Of a stretch of DNA of 64,000 nt, positions 801-7,783 are shown one piece after another. The DNA is from Myxococcales bacterium (GTDB lineage: Bacteria; Myxococcota_A; Polyangia; Polyangiales; Polyangiaceae). Each line of letters begins with the position of its first letter. Position 1 is the stretch's first letter. The notes beneath the pieces are model-generated. The model was given only the letters and a program-made list of their open reading frames with translations, was not told where the DNA came from and ran no database searches. Where the stretch lies: contig CANJCO010000004.1 of assembly GCA_947473045.1 (NCBI GenBank), positions 1 to 64,000 of the forward strand. The letters run 5' to 3'. Position numbers and translations under genes: made by a program.

Positions 801-2972
801 TCAAATCCCCTGCCGCACCACCGCTGTGGCGCCTGCCGTGACCTCGACCGACACGAGCTTTCGGCTACCGCCTTCGCCGCGCAGGGTGAGCTGGTGACGG
901 CCCGCGGCGACGCTTTGCTTGAATATGGGTGACGGCCCGAGCGAGTGGCCTCCGTCGATCACGTCGGTGCACGCAGGCGTGCAAACGACGGTGAGCAGTC
1001 CGGTCCTGGCCGGTTGCGGCGGAGTCGGTTGCGGCGCCGGCGTGGCCTTCGGGGGCGACACGGGAAGCGAGGTCACGTTGACCGCGGGCGTCGGGCGACT
1101 CGCGAGGGTCGTGCTCGCAGGCGGCGGCGCGGCGGGCTGCGGCGTCGGCGCAGGCGCAGGCGCGGCGGTCGTCGTGGCGGCGGTGGTCGGGGCGACGGTG
1201 GTCGGGGCGGGCGCTGCGGGCTGCGTCGCGGCGTGCGTCACGCTTGATTGCGGCAGCGACGGAGCAGCGGCCGACGCCGATGGGGCGGCCGTGAGCGGAG
1301 TGGGGTCTTCGTTCGTGAACGCGCGAACGAGCACGATGAACCCGAGAAAGAGCACGAGGCCGACGCCGCCCCCGATGAGCGCCGCGCGCACGTTCTGCGA
1401 GCGCGGATAGCCGGGAATGCGATAGGGACCCGGCGTGGCGGGCGGCAGCGCCGGCATGATGCGCGCGCCGAGCGGAATCACCGGACCGTCGTCGTCAAGG
1501 GCGCCTTGCGAAAACGCGGGAGGCTGCGGCGCGAGCGCCGGCGCGGGAGGCGTATCGGGCAGCTCGAGCTCGAACGGCGCGATCGGCGTCATGTGCGAGA
1601 TGTATGAAGGATCGGGCGGCGGCGGCGCGGGCCTGGCGCCGGGGCGCACCCACACCTGCGAGCCGGCATCGAGCCGGTCGACGTGCGCGCGCAGCTCGAA
1701 CGTGGGCGGGGCAGGGGCCGCCGCTGGCGCCAAGCGCGCAGCGAGGGACGGAGGCGCTGGAGGTGGGGTGAAGGGGCCCAGCTCGGCCTGCGCGTTCGGA
1801 CGCTCCTGAGTGGCCGCCAGATCGTCGACCGAAGGGGCCCTGGGCCTGTGCGGAGCGCGGCGCGTGGGCGCCGTCGGCGGATCGTTGACCATCGTGGGCT
1901 CGGCCTCGAAGTCGCTCGCGAGCGAGTCGGGAATACCGATCCGCACAGCGTGCCGCGACTTGAGAAATACTTCGGTTACGTCCGACGCCTCGCGCAGCTG
2001 CGCGTCACGTTCGGCGAAGGTGTCGGCGAACATCGTGCGCATGTAGCCGGCGACGTCGTCGCTTCGCACCAGCACGCCGCGCGCCACGAGCGCCGATTCG
2101 AGTGCGCGCGACAGGTCCCGCGCCGTCGCGAAGCGGTCTTCTTTGCGGTGCGCGAGCGCCCGGCGCACGACGCCGTCGATTTCGGCGGGAAAGCCGGGCA
2201 CTTCGTCGCCGAGAGAAGGCACCTCTCCGGCCTCGACCCTCGCTCGCGTCTCGTCGTCGGTCTCGCGGGCGAACAGCCGCTGGCCGGCGCACAGCTCCCA
2301 GAGAATGACTCCGAGCGCGAACACGTCGGTGCGGGCGTCGACCGCCTCGGACCAGATCTGCTCCGGCGCGGCGTAAGCCAGCTTGCGGCGATCGAGCGTG
2401 CCGCGCGCCCTCGGCTCGAACGCGCCCTTGATCTTGGTGCTGCCGTCGAACGTGACGACGATGCTGTGCGGCGCGACGTCGCCGTGGAGCAGCCCCAGCG
2501 GCGTGCCGTCTGCGCGGGTGTGGCAGTGCACGGCGTGCAGTCCCTCTGCGGCGTCGGCCACGATGCGCGCCGCCACGTCCCACGACACGGGAGTGTCGGC
2601 GAGCTGCACCCGCCCGATGAGCTCTTCGAGGCGCTCGCCCAGCAGGTGCTCGGTGGCGAGCCAGGAGGTGCCGTCGGTCTCTCCGACGTCGAACAGCGCG
2701 GCCACGTTGGGGTGAAGGAGCGCGGCGCCCTGCCGGGCACGCTCGAAGAACTCCGACATGAAAATCGAGTCGCGGGCCCGCACCTGGTCGACCATGCGAA
2801 TGGCCGCCCAGCGCTGAAAGCCCTGCGTGCCCTCGAGCCGAGCGAGGTGCAGAGGCCCGACAGCGCTGCGACCGATCTCGCCGAGCACGTGGTACTGCCC
2901 GAGCAACCGGGGCCGCCTCAGCGAGGTGCTGCGAGGCGGCACTCTCGGTAGCGGCGCGCGGGGAGACTGCAT
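801..2972 (-). CDS. Membrane-anchored Hanks-type pseudokinase with PEGA-like C-terminus
   Basis: This 723-residue protein has a Ser/Thr kinase fold at about 25-310, a long Pro/Ala-rich linker, one membrane helix near residues 545-570 (GGGVGLVLFLGFIVLV), and an exported C-terminus ending in a PEGA-like module. Fold landmarks are present: APEQ at 202-205, DVFALGVILWEL, and a terminal Arg. The catalytic residues are not. The ATP-anchoring Lys is Arg59 (WAAIRM), HRDxKxxN is HGDVAPHS with Asp165 but no Lys or Asn, and DFG is replaced by GAF at 183-185. I infer a signalling scaffold or cell-wall sensor rather than an active kinase. The ATG at 2972 was chosen because the upstream frame is antisense shadow of argJB. 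It lies 47 bp downstream of argJB on the same strand. Confidence 0.85.
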   Translation of the reverse strand: MQSPRAPLPRVPPRSTSLRRPRLLGQYHVLGEIGRSAVGPLHLARLEGTQGFQRWAAIRMVDQVRARDSIFMSEFFERARQGAALLHPNVAALFDVGETDGTSWLATEHLLGERLEELIGRVQLADTPVSWDVAARIVADAAEGLHAVHCHTRADGTPLGLLHGDVAPHSIVVTFDGSTKIKGAFEPRARGTLDRRKLAYAAPEQIWSEAVDARTDVFALGVILWELCAGQRLFARETDDETRARVEAGEVPSLGDEVPGFPAEIDGVVRRALAHRKEDRFATARDLSRALESALVARGVLVRSDDVAGYMRTMFADTFAERDAQLREASDVTEVFLKSRHAVRIGIPDSLASDFEAEPTMVNDPPTAPTRRAPHRPRAPSVDDLAATQERPNAQAELGPFTPPPAPPSLAARLAPAAAPAPPTFELRAHVDRLDAGSQVWVRPGARPAPPPPDPSYISHMTPIAPFELELPDTPPAPALAPQPPAFSQGALDDDGPVIPLGARIMPALPPATPGPYRIPGYPRSQNVRAALIGGGVGLVLFLGFIVLVRAFTNEDPTPLTAAPSASAAAPSLPQSSVTHAATQPAAPAPTTVAPTTAATTTAAPAPAPTPQPAAPPPASTTLASRPTPAVNVTSLPVSPPKATPAPQPTPPQPARTGLLTVVCTPACTDVIDGGHSLGPSPIFKQSVAAGRHQLTLRGEGGSRKLVSVEVTAGATAVVRQGI

Positions 2973-3019: not shown

Positions 3020-5113
3020 TCAGTCGCGGTGAATGAGCGTACCGACTCCGCGGTCGGTGAACAGCTCGGCGATTACGCTGTGAGGCGTGCGACCGTCGAT
3101 GATGTGCACGCTCCCCACGCCGCCTTCGAGCGCGCGCAGGCAGCTCTTCATCTTGGCGACCATGCCACCCTTGATGGTGCCCGCGGCGATCTTGGCGAGG
3201 ACTTCGCTGGCTGAGATCTCGCTGAGGAGCTCGCCATTTTCGAGCACTCCGGCCACGTCGGTCAGGTAGATGAGCTTCTCGGCCTTGATGGCGACAGCGA
3301 CCTCGGCGGCGGCCGAGTCGGCGTTGATATTGAAGCCCTCGCCGTCGTCGCCCATGCCCACAGGCGAAATCACCGGGACGTATTTGCCGAGCATCATCTC
3401 GAGCAGCTCGGAGTTTACGCTCGTGATCTCGCCCACCATGCCCAGATCGCGACCGCCTTCGCCGAGCTGCTTTCGAGCGCGCAGCAAGCCGGCGTCTTTG
3501 CCCGAAAGGCCCACGGCGGCCGCGTGCGTCTGATTGATGAGGGTTACGATCTCGGTGTTGATCTTTCCCGTGAGCACCATCTCGACGACCTTCACGTCGG
3601 CGGCGTCGGTGATGCGAATTCCGTCGACGAACTCGCTCTTTTTGCTGCCGAGCTTCTCGAGCGTGCGGGTGATTTCGGGGCCGCCGCCGTGCACGATACA
3701 AGGATGCAAGCCGGCGGATCGCAGCAGGTTTACGTCGTTGGCGAAGCTCGCCTTGAGCGAGTCTTTCACCATCGCCGCGCCGCCGTACTTGATGACTGCG
3801 CGCTTGCCGGCGAACCGCGAGATGTAGCTGAGCGCCTCGACGAGCAGCGCGCGCTTGAAGCCGGGGCTGTAGTTGGTGAGGCGATCGTCGCGCGACACGA
3901 CACCATCGGCCGAAGCGCTGATGAGTGAAGTGTAGTCGGCGTTGATCTTCACGTAATCGTACGACAGATCGCAGCCCCACGCGGTGGCGGCGCGATCGCC
4001 CTCGGCGAGCGTGACCTCGACGGTGACTTCGGGCTCGCGCATCTTCGCGCGAAGTGCCGCGGGATCGGCGCCCGCTGGCTCGCCCGCGTTGAAGACCGTG
4101 ACGCCCTGAATGACGACGGTCGCCTTGGACGGATCGATGTCGAACCGCTGCGAGCCCGCGCGCGCGCCCACGGTGGCGAGCACCCGACCCCAGTTCGGAT
4201 CGGCCCCGAAGATGGCTGCTTTCACCAGCGCGCTGCCCGCGATCGATCGCGAGAGATCTTTGGCGATGGCTTCGGAGGGGGCGCCCTTGACGTTGACGGT
4301 CACGAGCTTGGTGGCGCCTTCGCCGTCTTCGGCGATCGACCGCGCGATCTCGATGCACATGAAGGTGAGCGCGGCCTGAAATTCGGCGTAGCTCGCGCTG
4401 CGCTCGCTGATGATGCGGTTGCCTGCGAGACCGCTCGCGAGCATGAACACCGCGTCGTTGGTGCTCATGTCGCCGTCGACGTTGAGGTGGTTGAAGCTCT
4501 CTTCGACGGCGCGCGAAAGGGCCGCCTGAAGTGCCTCTTTTTCGATTGCGAGATCGGTCGTGATGAACGCCAGCGTGGTGGCCATTTCGGGCGCGATCAT
4601 GCCCGAGCCTTTGCTCATCGCCGAGATCCGTACCTGCGCCCCGTCGATGTTCAGCACGCGCCGCGCGATCTTGATGCGCGTATCGGTCGTGATGATGGCC
4701 TCGGCCGCTCCCTGCATCGACGGAGACAGCCCGTCTTTCAGGCGCGGGGCGGCGTCTTTGAGCTTTTGCAGCGGCAGTCGCACGCCGATCACGCCGGTCG
4801 ATGCGGACATCACGCTGTTCGAGGGAATGCCGAGCGCCTCGCCGAACGCGACGTGGATCGCGCGCACATCGTCGGCGCCCGCCGCACCGGTGAGGGCGTT
4901 GGCGTTCCCGCTGTTGACGACGATCGCCCGGACGCTGTCGGACGGCAACCGAAGCGCGGCGTCGCTCACTGCAGCGGCGCGCGCCTTGTTGACGGTGAAG
5001 CATCCGGCGGCGACGCAGGGGACGTCGCAGTAGATGAGCGCGAGGTCTTTGCGCGACGACTTGATGCCGGCGTTGATGCCGGCATAACTGAACCCACGCG
5101 GGACGGTATCCAT
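3020..5113 (-). CDS. argJB: ArgJ-ArgB fusion: glutamate N-acetyltransferase / acetylglutamate kinase
   Basis: One uninterrupted 697-residue frame holds two arginine-biosynthesis enzymes. Residues 1-395 are ArgJ (ornithine acetyltransferase/N-acetylglutamate synthase), with the self-cleavage region KGSGMIAPEMATT (predicted cut at Ala178-Thr179) and the characteristic ArgJ C-terminal sequence DLSYDYVKINADYTS. After a linker of about 25 residues, residues 423-697 are ArgB (N-acetylglutamate kinase), with AVIKYGGAAM, IVHGGGPE and the C-terminal nucleotide-binding segment. No stop or internal reinitiation site separates them. If ArgJ self-cleaves as usual, ArgB stays attached to the beta chain. 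The ATG at 5113 starts the standard ArgJ N-terminus, and argC ends 17 bp upstream, so argC-argJB is an operon. Confidence 0.93.
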   Translation of the reverse strand: MDTVPRGFSYAGINAGIKSSRKDLALIYCDVPCVAAGCFTVNKARAAAVSDAALRLPSDSVRAIVVNSGNANALTGAAGADDVRAIHVAFGEALGIPSNSVMSASTGVIGVRLPLQKLKDAAPRLKDGLSPSMQGAAEAIITTDTRIKIARRVLNIDGAQVRISAMSKGSGMIAPEMATTLAFITTDLAIEKEALQAALSRAVEESFNHLNVDGDMSTNDAVFMLASGLAGNRIISERSASYAEFQAALTFMCIEIARSIAEDGEGATKLVTVNVKGAPSEAIAKDLSRSIAGSALVKAAIFGADPNWGRVLATVGARAGSQRFDIDPSKATVVIQGVTVFNAGEPAGADPAALRAKMREPEVTVEVTLAEGDRAATAWGCDLSYDYVKINADYTSLISASADGVVSRDDRLTNYSPGFKRALLVEALSYISRFAGKRAVIKYGGAAMVKDSLKASFANDVNLLRSAGLHPCIVHGGGPEITRTLEKLGSKKSEFVDGIRITDAADVKVVEMVLTGKINTEIVTLINQTHAAAVGLSGKDAGLLRARKQLGEGGRDLGMVGEITSVNSELLEMMLGKYVPVISPVGMGDDGEGFNINADSAAAEVAVAIKAEKLIYLTDVAGVLENGELLSEISASEVLAKIAAGTIKGGMVAKMKSCLRALEGGVGSVHIIDGRTPHSVIAELFTDRGVGTLIHRD

Positions 5114-5130: not shown

Positions 5131-6171
5131 CTACGGCGCGATCCGCGCCAGCGTGCCCAGTCCCAGTGTTTCGCCAAGGCCCAGCGCCAGATTCATGTTC
5201 TGCACGGCCTGCCCCGCCGCGCCCTTGATGAGGTTGTCGAGCGCGCACACCACGACGATGGCGTCGCCCCGGCACTCGGCGCCGACGTACGCGAAGTTCG
5301 TTCCGGCGACGGCGTGAATGCTCACCTCGTCTGCGGCGACGACCCGAACGAACGACGAATCGGCGTAGGCCGCGCGCAGGGCGTCGCTCACGGAGGCCTT
5401 CGTCGCGCCAGGGCGCGCGCGCAGGTAGCAGGTGACAAGCAGCCCGCGCGACAGCGGCAGCAGGTGCGGCACGAAGGCGAGCCCGGTGACGCCCCTGGCC
5501 GAGCCTTGGGTCACGGCGCGCTCGATTTCAGGTGTATGCTGGTGCGACAGCAGCTTGTAGGCGCGCAGGTCTTCGTTGGCCTCGACGAACGAGTAGGCCT
5601 CTTTTGCCTGACGACCGGCCCCGGACACGCCGCTCTTCGCGTCGACGAAAATGCCCGATGGCTCTGCGAGTCCGGCCTTGAGCACCGGCGTGAGCGCGAG
5701 GATCGTGGCGGTCGCGTAGCAGCCGGGATTCGAGATGAGCACAGCGTCTTCGGGCGGCGGGCCAAACACCTCGGGCAGGCCGTAAAAAGCGCTCGCGAGG
5801 TAAGCGGGCGCCGGATGTTCGAAGCCGTACCATTGCGGATAGGCAGCAGCCTCGCCGAGTCGAAACGCGCCCGACAAATCGATGGTGAGCTTGCCGAGGT
5901 CGGCGAACGCAGGCGCGAGCTTCGCGGCGATTTCGGCGCTCGTGGCGAGGAAGACCACGTCGGCGCTGGCGGCGAGCTCGACCGCAGAAGCGTTCGGTGA
6001 AAAGCGCAGGCTCGGGTCGAAGAAGCCACCGAGGCGGTCGCGGGCGCGCTCACCCTCGTGGCGATCGCTGGTGACGAACCCGAGCTTCATCCCGGGATGT
6101 CCCGCCGCGATGCGGGCGAGGGTGGCTCCCGAATACCCAGAAGCTCCTACGATGCCAACGCGCGACGCCAT
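5131..6171 (-). CDS. argC: N-acetyl-gamma-glutamyl-phosphate reductase
   Basis: This 346-residue enzyme performs the third step of arginine synthesis, the NADPH-dependent reduction of N-acetylglutamyl phosphate to the semialdehyde. An N-terminal Rossmann motif VGIVGASGYSG is followed by the catalytic SNPGCYAT (Cys151) and the conserved His-containing HQHTPEIE segment. Length and start fit bacterial ArgC. It is immediately upstream of argJB, so the three chemical steps that follow or supply acetylglutamate are made from one message. The ATG at 6171 lies 44 bp after a small lipoprotein gene in the same orientation. Confidence 0.95.
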   Translation of the reverse strand: MASRVGIVGASGYSGATLARIAAGHPGMKLGFVTSDRHEGERARDRLGGFFDPSLRFSPNASAVELAASADVVFLATSAEIAAKLAPAFADLGKLTIDLSGAFRLGEAAAYPQWYGFEHPAPAYLASAFYGLPEVFGPPPEDAVLISNPGCYATATILALTPVLKAGLAEPSGIFVDAKSGVSGAGRQAKEAYSFVEANEDLRAYKLLSHQHTPEIERAVTQGSARGVTGLAFVPHLLPLSRGLLVTCYLRARPGATKASVSDALRAAYADSSFVRVVAADEVSIHAVAGTNFAYVGAECRGDAIVVVCALDNLIKGAAGQAVQNMNLALGLGETLGLGTLARIAP

Positions 6172-6547: not shown

Positions 6548-7783
6548 TCAGGACGCGACGACGCGGGTCTTGATGTTGGTGACCAGCTTCGCGATGTCGG
6601 CCGCGACCGCGCCGGCGACCGCCACGCCCTCGGCGCCTGCGGTAACCTCGAGGTCCATCACGAGGTAGCCGATGCTGGCGTCGGTAGAGAGCGTCTGCCC
6701 GCGAATGTTGCCGCCGTGCTGGCTCACGATGTGGTTGACGTCGCCGAGCACGCCCGGAACGTTTCGGTGCACGTTGAGCACGCGGTGCAGCCCCGGCGTC
6801 ATGGGCAGCTCGACGTTCGGGAAATTCACCGACGCCGTCGTGGTGCCGCTGTCGATCAGCTTGATGAGGCTGGTGGCGACCTCGCGGCCGATCATCTCCT
6901 GGGCCTCTTCGGTCGAGCCGCCGATGTGCGGCGTGAGGATCACGTTCGGCAGGTTGCGCAGCGGCGAAGCGAACGCGTCGCTCGCGCCCTCGGGCTCCTC
7001 GGGATACACGTCGACGGCGGCGCCTCCGACCTGTCCCGATGCGATGGCCGCGGCCAGCGCGGCGATGTCGACCACGGTTCCGCGCGAGGCGTTGATGAGA
7101 TACGCGCCGCGCTTCATGCCGGCGATTTGAGGCTCGCCCATCATGCCGTGCGTCTCGCGCGTGGCAGGCACGTGGAGCGTGACGAAATCGCTCTGCTCGA
7201 GCAGGTCGCCGAGGGTCGCGAGCGAACGGTTGTTACCCATCGGCAGCTTGGTGGCGACGTCGAAAAATACCACGCGTAGCCCCATGGCCTCGGCGAGCAC
7301 GCCGACCTGCGAGCCGATGTGCCCGTAGCCCACGATGCCGAGGGTCTTGCCGCGCACCTCGAAGCAACCGGCGCTGACTTTGCGCCACTTGCCCTCGTGC
7401 ACTTCGCGGGAGCGGTCGCCCAGCTGTCGCGAGAGCATGATGATCTCGCCGATCACGAGCTCGGCGACGCTGCGTGTGTTCGAAAACGGCGCGTTGAATA
7501 CCGGCACGCCCAGCGCGTTGGCGCTGCCCAGATCGACTTGATTGGTGCCGATGCAGAAGCAGCCGAGCGCGATGAGGTCGGGGGCCGACGCCAGCGCGGC
7601 CTGTGTGATCTGAGTCTTTGAGCGGATGCCGAGCAGGTGCACGCCGGCAAGCCTGGCGGCCATCTCGTCGGGCTTGAGCGCTGCCTTCAAGGTCTCGACC
7701 TCGAACCCCGCCTGCGCGAGGAGCGCGACGGCGCCCGGGTGAATGTTTTCGACGAGGAGCGCTTTTTTGCGGGTCTGAACCAT
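6548..7783 (-). CDS. serA: D-3-phosphoglycerate dehydrogenase
   Basis: This 411-residue protein catalyses the first step of serine synthesis, oxidation of 3-phosphoglycerate with NAD+. The substrate domain and the nucleotide-binding domain are clear (GIVGYGHIGSQVGVLAEAMG), followed by the catalytic Arg (NASRGTVVD), Glu (YPEEPEG) and His (LTPHIGGSTEEA). Residues from about 335 form an ACT-like regulatory domain (HRNVPGVLGDVNHIVS), giving the same length as the E. coli-type serine-inhibited enzyme. The ATG at 7783 begins the family-typical N-terminus; the longer upstream frame is antisense shadow of the divergent esterase gene. It is likely the first gene of the serA-argC-argJB transcript. Confidence 0.95.
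   Translation of the reverse strand: MVQTRKKALLVENIHPGAVALLAQAGFEVETLKAALKPDEMAARLAGVHLLGIRSKTQITQAALASAPDLIALGCFCIGTNQVDLGSANALGVPVFNAPFSNTRSVAELVIGEIIMLSRQLGDRSREVHEGKWRKVSAGCFEVRGKTLGIVGYGHIGSQVGVLAEAMGLRVVFFDVATKLPMGNNRSLATLGDLLEQSDFVTLHVPATRETHGMMGEPQIAGMKRGAYLINASRGTVVDIAALAAAIASGQVGGAAVDVYPEEPEGASDAFASPLRNLPNVILTPHIGGSTEEAQEMIGREVATSLIKLIDSGTTTASVNFPNVELPMTPGLHRVLNVHRNVPGVLGDVNHIVSQHGGNIRGQTLSTDASIGYLVMDLEVTAGAEGVAVAGAVAADIAKLVTNIKTRVVAS

Follow-up and report, generated by a model that had tools for sequence, protein, structure and literature searches.

Structure and genomic context of the argJ-argB fusion gene

A single uninterrupted frame of 697 codons plus a stop, seen in the ORF translation, runs from 5113 to 3020 on the minus strand of the window (the whole stretch of 64,000 nucleotides that was analysed), and begins with an ATG codon preceded by a GGAG-like ribosome site. 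The original prediction had given the same frame and span, to which the strand can now be added; neither a stop nor a frameshift, either of which it had regarded as grounds for rejecting the fusion, is present near 3890-3940. Its claim that the frame joins a complete ArgJ to a complete ArgB is borne out by the profile matches of the window protein, namely those to the Pfam ArgJ model (residues 10-396, profile positions 2-377 of 377, E = 1.2e-135) and the Pfam AA_kinase model (residues 437-673, profile positions 1-234 of 234, E = 3.1e-42), together with those to the NCBIfam models TIGR00120 for ArgJ (426 bits against a curated cut-off of 298, residues 3-396) and TIGR00761 for argB (231 bits against a curated cut-off of 151).

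The N-terminal ArgJ part (residues 1-396; 3926-5113, minus strand) contains the complete PF01960 domain with its active-site residues intact, and none of the ArgJ catalytic columns (Thr, Lys, Glu, Asn and the oxyanion Thr-Gly) varies among the 55 fusions scored. ArgJ is a self-cleaving protein, and the predicted autocleavage pair Ala178-Thr179 (4577-4582, minus strand) lies, as had been proposed, in an in-frame motif, KGSGMIAPEMA/TT, whose Thr is invariant in the fusions. Cleavage at this pair would yield an alpha chain encoded by 4580-5113 and a beta chain encoded, together with the kinase part, by 3023-4579 (both minus strand), so that the kinase would indeed be carried on the beta chain.

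The C-terminal part (residues 415-697) is a complete ArgB of the arginine-sensitive type, including the N-terminal helix characteristic of that type. This helix (residues 415-436; 3806-3871, minus strand) aligns to PDB: 2buf, 2bty and 4usj, and its L/Y/F positions are retained across the aligned fusions. The amino-acid-kinase core which follows (residues 437-697; 3023-3805, minus strand) has all eight NAGK catalytic positions intact (KGGGRNDK). It also contains the key arginine-site residue Lys613 (3275-3277, minus strand) and the C-terminal arginine-site motif from H670 to T692 (HIIDGRTPHSVIAELFTDRGVGT; 3038-3106, minus strand), both of which are conserved across the fusions, with the latter fitting the pattern E-(L/I)-(F/M)-(T/S)-X-X-G-X-G-T (PMC4490483).

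The linker between the two parts (approximately residues 397-414; 3872-3925, minus strand) is of conserved length: the spacing between the conserved Asn of ArgJ (N391) and the beginning of the N-helix is 25 residues in 44 of the 52 fusions measured and 24 residues in six of them, and in the window protein it matches the earlier estimate of about 25 residues. The structural model of the window protein consists of an ArgJ and an NAGK joined by this low-confidence linker (pLDDT below 50 over residues 384-431), with a helix at residues 417-432. An internal start that would give rise to a free ArgB is not supported, since the linker has no conserved start codon; its conserved Val is encoded by GTC in 24 cases and GTG in 21, and 14 of the 52 linkers have no ATG, GTG or TTG.

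Immediately upstream lies argC (5131-6171, minus strand), which ends 17 bases before the start of the fusion, forming a putative argC-argJB operon. An argC signature is found directly upstream of most fusions with enough flanking sequence, and at two loci (L007 and L012) the junction has the sequence CCATGA, in which the stop of argC and the start of the fusion would overlap. The neighboring genes are a D-3-phosphoglycerate dehydrogenase-like gene upstream of argC (6548-7780, minus strand) and a serine/threonine protein kinase-like frame downstream of the fusion (801-2951, minus strand).

Phyletic patterns of the fusion

A search for the co-occurrence of ArgJ and ArgB in one protein, which had been suggested as a check, recovered the fusion in 40 of the 184 genomes of the window's order, 35 of them in the window's family (f1) and five in family f8 (these designations, like f16, g15 and g61 below, are group codes and not taxon names). 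An even sample of the phylum Myxococcota contributed 16 further fusion genomes from other orders and classes. The named fusion records, all NCBI Myxococcota, are those of Archangium violaceum Cb vi76 (L065), a Myxococcales metagenome assembly (L064), which seems to be the same genome as G099, and a genome from groundwater (L077). Two genomes, G288 and G331, with profile matches in separate or interrupted frames were excluded from the fusion set. An assembly or frameshift artefact is ruled out by the occurrence of the fusion in 40 genomes of the order, three of which are single-contig; absence from close relatives, the other anticipated ground for rejection, does not hold either, as a genome of the same genus has the fusion at 79% identity. 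No fusion was found outside Myxococcota among the 56 scorable of 77 GTDB r220 loci, which were drawn from the best 80 of at least 597 candidates. In all 56, argJ and argB are separate yet close together, suggesting that an argCJB-type operon is the likely source of the fusion.

The fusion is old and widespread but patchy in Myxococcota, which partly answers the question of its spread left by the original prediction. We also agree with the latter that such a fusion is not commonly described: no description of it was found in the open-access literature searched. Classical ArgA (TIGR01890) was absent from all 56 fusion genomes tested. Within the order, TIGR01890 ArgA is present in 51 of the 184 genomes and in none of family f1, and f1 genomes without the fusion must therefore make N-acetylglutamate by ArgJ or by an unrecognised synthase. 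Replacement of ArgA by the fusion has no clean test here, because ArgA is missing from f1 as a whole, which amounts to one or a few events.

Differential conservation of the arginine site and the kinase active site

The kinase parts of 59 fusion rows were aligned with E. coli ArgB (L186), 2buf and 2bty, and with stand-alone ArgBs of the fusion genomes themselves and of a few relatives. The catalytic positions scored were K8, G11, G44, G45, R66, N158, D162 and K217 (E. coli numbering), taken from PMC3329491 and the established NAGK residues, and the arginine-site columns were defined after PMC4490483. The catalytic set is complete in 25 of the 59 fusion rows (one genome being counted twice), including the window protein; nine rows have lost one or two of the eight positions, where loss includes conservative changes such as K to R, so that these mildly changed kinases may still work. 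The remaining 25 have lost three or more positions, and belong to several separate lineages. The arginine-site columns (the N-helix, the Lys and H...E-L-F-T-x-x-G-x-G-T) are kept throughout the 59 rows save for one Tyr to Phe change, one Lys to Arg change and one row truncated at the end of a contig.

The stand-alone ArgBs show the reverse pattern: essentially every row that could be scored retains the catalytic set, whereas more than half of these ArgBs are without the N-helix and the arginine motif. They fall into two types, namely type i, with N-helix and motif, and type ii, with neither, which mostly adjoins an argC and which, on its sequence features, we read as the arginine-insensitive type. 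Among the fusions, those of genus g61 (L150, L151 and L152) have D-P-(G/S)-(Y/A)-G-R in place of the ArgJ motif D-P-N-W-G-R; their kinase part is also degraded, and the checked ArgJ catalytic residues remain. The fusions of family f16 (L223-L231) bear a near-invariant T-R-Q tail after the arginine motif that is unseen in other fusions.

These patterns bear on what the fusion is for. Channelling of acetylglutamate to the attached kinase, the reason first put forward, is not the best supported, as a channel cannot be the shared function of a family of which about half lacks the kinase catalytic residues. The effect on arginine feedback, which had been left open, instead looks central: the arginine site is the feature kept in essentially all fusions, making feedback control the apparent main point, and the kinase set kept in 25 fusions implies that kinase activity matters there too.

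Three genomic situations illustrate this range. In the six genomes of genus g15 neither an ArgJ nor an ArgB was found other than the fusion, which has a complete catalytic set and hence probably does both jobs; sole-copy statements such as this one draw on genomes that are mostly drafts, in which the absence of a gene may be an assembly gap. In the nine genomes of family f16, the only ArgJ found is a fusion with a shortened kinase part that has lost nearly all catalytic residues and retains a perfect N-helix, Lys and arginine motif, and the only NAGK found is of type ii. The structural model of the f16 tail is a single domain that still has an arginine-type NAGK fold; its best matches in the kinase family are NAGKs, including arginine-bound 2bty (Z 18.6, 3.3 A over 200 residues, for a predicted model). 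The window organism has, besides the fusion, a second argJ (contig C12); as the kinase residues of its fusion are intact, this protein is probably bifunctional too. Its contig C81 (L003, 150-3365) carries an argC-argB-hisH-hisA cluster, with a second argC and a type ii ArgB lacking the N-helix and arginine motif, so that the genome has a kinase of the arginine-sensitive type and one of the insensitive type.

The window protein, the 24 other fusion rows with a complete catalytic set and the sole ArgJ and ArgB of g15 would all be expected if the fusion were a bifunctional enzyme for co-expression or channelling, in which ArgJ makes N-acetylglutamate, the attached arginine-inhibited NAGK uses it and the arginine site serves the kinase only. 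We consider this unlikely, as it leaves unexplained both the many relatives that have lost kinase residues but retain the arginine site in a domain under selection, and f16, whose tail could not act as a kinase.

Selection on the degraded kinase domains and their evolutionary history

Pairwise identity among degraded fusions of different lineages falls to as little as 0.19 in the N-lobe, compared with 0.56 in the N-helix and 0.65 in the arginine motif. The kinase-like part has a dN/dS of 0.03 to 0.53 in eight pairs of degraded fusions (e.g. 0.03 for G489/G478 and 0.15 for G290/G259), often below that of the ArgJ part, with some dS values near saturation. Thus, the wrecked kinase domain remains under purifying selection. 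This selective decay, in which the N-lobe is lost and the N-helix and arginine motif are kept, along with the low dN/dS and the fixed linker length, makes it very improbable that the fusion was a passive event fixed by drift in an argJ-argB operon, with the kinase decaying wherever another ArgB exists. In favor of such an origin, the side-by-side genes of the 56 loci from other phyla could be fused by the loss of one stop, and another ArgB is present in every checked fusion genome with a degraded kinase.

In a tree built from the ArgJ part only, the fusions cluster together, with the exception of G422, which pairs with the stand-alone ArgJ of G331. This tree requires a minimum of 10 transitions between the intact and the lost state of the kinase, with "lost" including mild changes. 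Within the window's order, a separate ArgB with an N-helix accompanies 14 of 18 catalytically lost fusions and one of 19 intact ones (G152, which is intact and has such an ArgB, lies outside that tree). The counts are suggestive of kinase loss where a second N-helix ArgB exists, but do not reach significance when independent pairs are compared (sign test median p 0.5). They would also suit a metabolon scaffold, in which the N-helix of the tail would let it assemble with the separate ArgB, so that ArgJ is brought to the kinase and arginine sensitivity is tuned, an arrangement for which the yeast NAGS-NAGK complex offers a precedent (PMC3329491). However, f16 and several other lineages have no separate ArgB except one without an N-helix, and this, together with the lack of significance, leaves the scaffold with little probability as an account of the family.

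A candidate arginine sensor on ArgJ

Taken together, the sequence features indicate that the protein is likely to be an ArgJ acetyltransferase whose C-terminal amino-acid-kinase domain senses arginine and controls ArgJ. Following self-cleavage of the precursor at Ala178-Thr179, the sensor would be carried on the beta chain. In arginine-sensitive NAGK and NAGS the binding site of arginine lies between the N-helix and the C-lobe, and arginine would bind the kinase domain of the fusion in the same place; the resulting movement, passed on via the fixed-length linker, would lower ArgJ activity, thereby placing N-acetylglutamate formation itself under feedback control. In the window organism this domain is probably an arginine-controlled kinase of N-acetylglutamate as well. 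Where a lineage has another NAGK, the kinase activity of the fusion may have been lost such that the sensor alone remained. In NAGS the signal likewise passes to the acetyltransferase, and a longer linker abolishes arginine inhibition (PMC4490483).

The closest functional parallel is classical NAGS (ArgA), which also combines an N-acetylglutamate-forming acetyltransferase with an amino-acid-kinase-fold domain bearing an arginine site, and whose kinase-fold domain, in the mono-functional forms, is not a working kinase. In the fusion, by contrast, the acetyltransferase is ArgJ, an autocleaving enzyme whose Ntn-hydrolase-like fold has no relation to GNAT, and the kinase-like domain follows it at the C-terminus. 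The fusion may thus work like classical NAGS by analogy but is not a member, because the C-terminal GNAT domain of the latter is absent: for the window protein Pfam gives only ArgJ and AA_kinase, and TIGR01890 scores 128 against a cut-off of 203. With the arginine-sensitive hexameric NAGKs (ArgB of Pseudomonas aeruginosa, PDB: 2buf, and Thermotoga maritima, PDB: 2bty) it shares the N-helix, the arginine-site motif and, in the window protein, the catalytic residues, the kinase part of the latter being about 50% identical to 2buf; unlike them, it is fused behind ArgJ and many of its members are without catalytic residues.

NAGK is also part of a larger arginine-controlled protein or complex of the arginine pathway in yeast NAGK/ARG5,6, the NAGS-NAGK metabolon and the bifunctional NAGS/K of Xanthomonas and Maricaulis, but the partners there are ArgC or a GNAT/DUF619 domain rather than ArgJ. 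The ArgH(A) fusion of Moritella and relatives is another arginine-pathway gene fusion, proposed to place acetylglutamate synthesis under arginine control (PMC1382215), although it involves different enzymes and no amino-acid-kinase domain.

The ArgJ part resembles known ArgJ (ornithine acetyltransferase or bifunctional N-acetylglutamate synthase) in its complete domain, autocleavage motif and invariant catalytic residues, and differs in bearing the C-terminal kinase-like domain. The general view is that arginine feedback on arginine synthesis acts at ArgB or ArgA, and reaches ArgJ only through ornithine. The controls reported so far are those of ArgB by arginine and of ArgJ by ornithine; regulation of known ArgJ is thus by ornithine and not arginine, in that the ArgJ enzymes studied are inhibited by ornithine and the C. 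glutamicum OAT is unaffected by arginine (PMC3827942). Given this, arginine control of ArgJ would be a new control point.

On balance, it seems plausible that Myxococcota invented an arginine-controlled glutamate acetyltransferase independently of ArgA/NAGS by moving the arginine-sensing ArgB domain onto ArgJ, that this domain became a pure sensor in several lineages, and that in one family ArgJ took over control from the kinase, which there is now of the arginine-insensitive type. For annotation, it is relevant that some tails score as argB yet are without kinase residues. If true, the sensor reading would add, beside the new control point, a second and independent case of the evolutionary move behind classical NAGS. 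The family contains the stages side by side, from a working kinase through a part-degraded kinase to a reduced sensor, which would make the passage from enzyme to allosteric domain testable.
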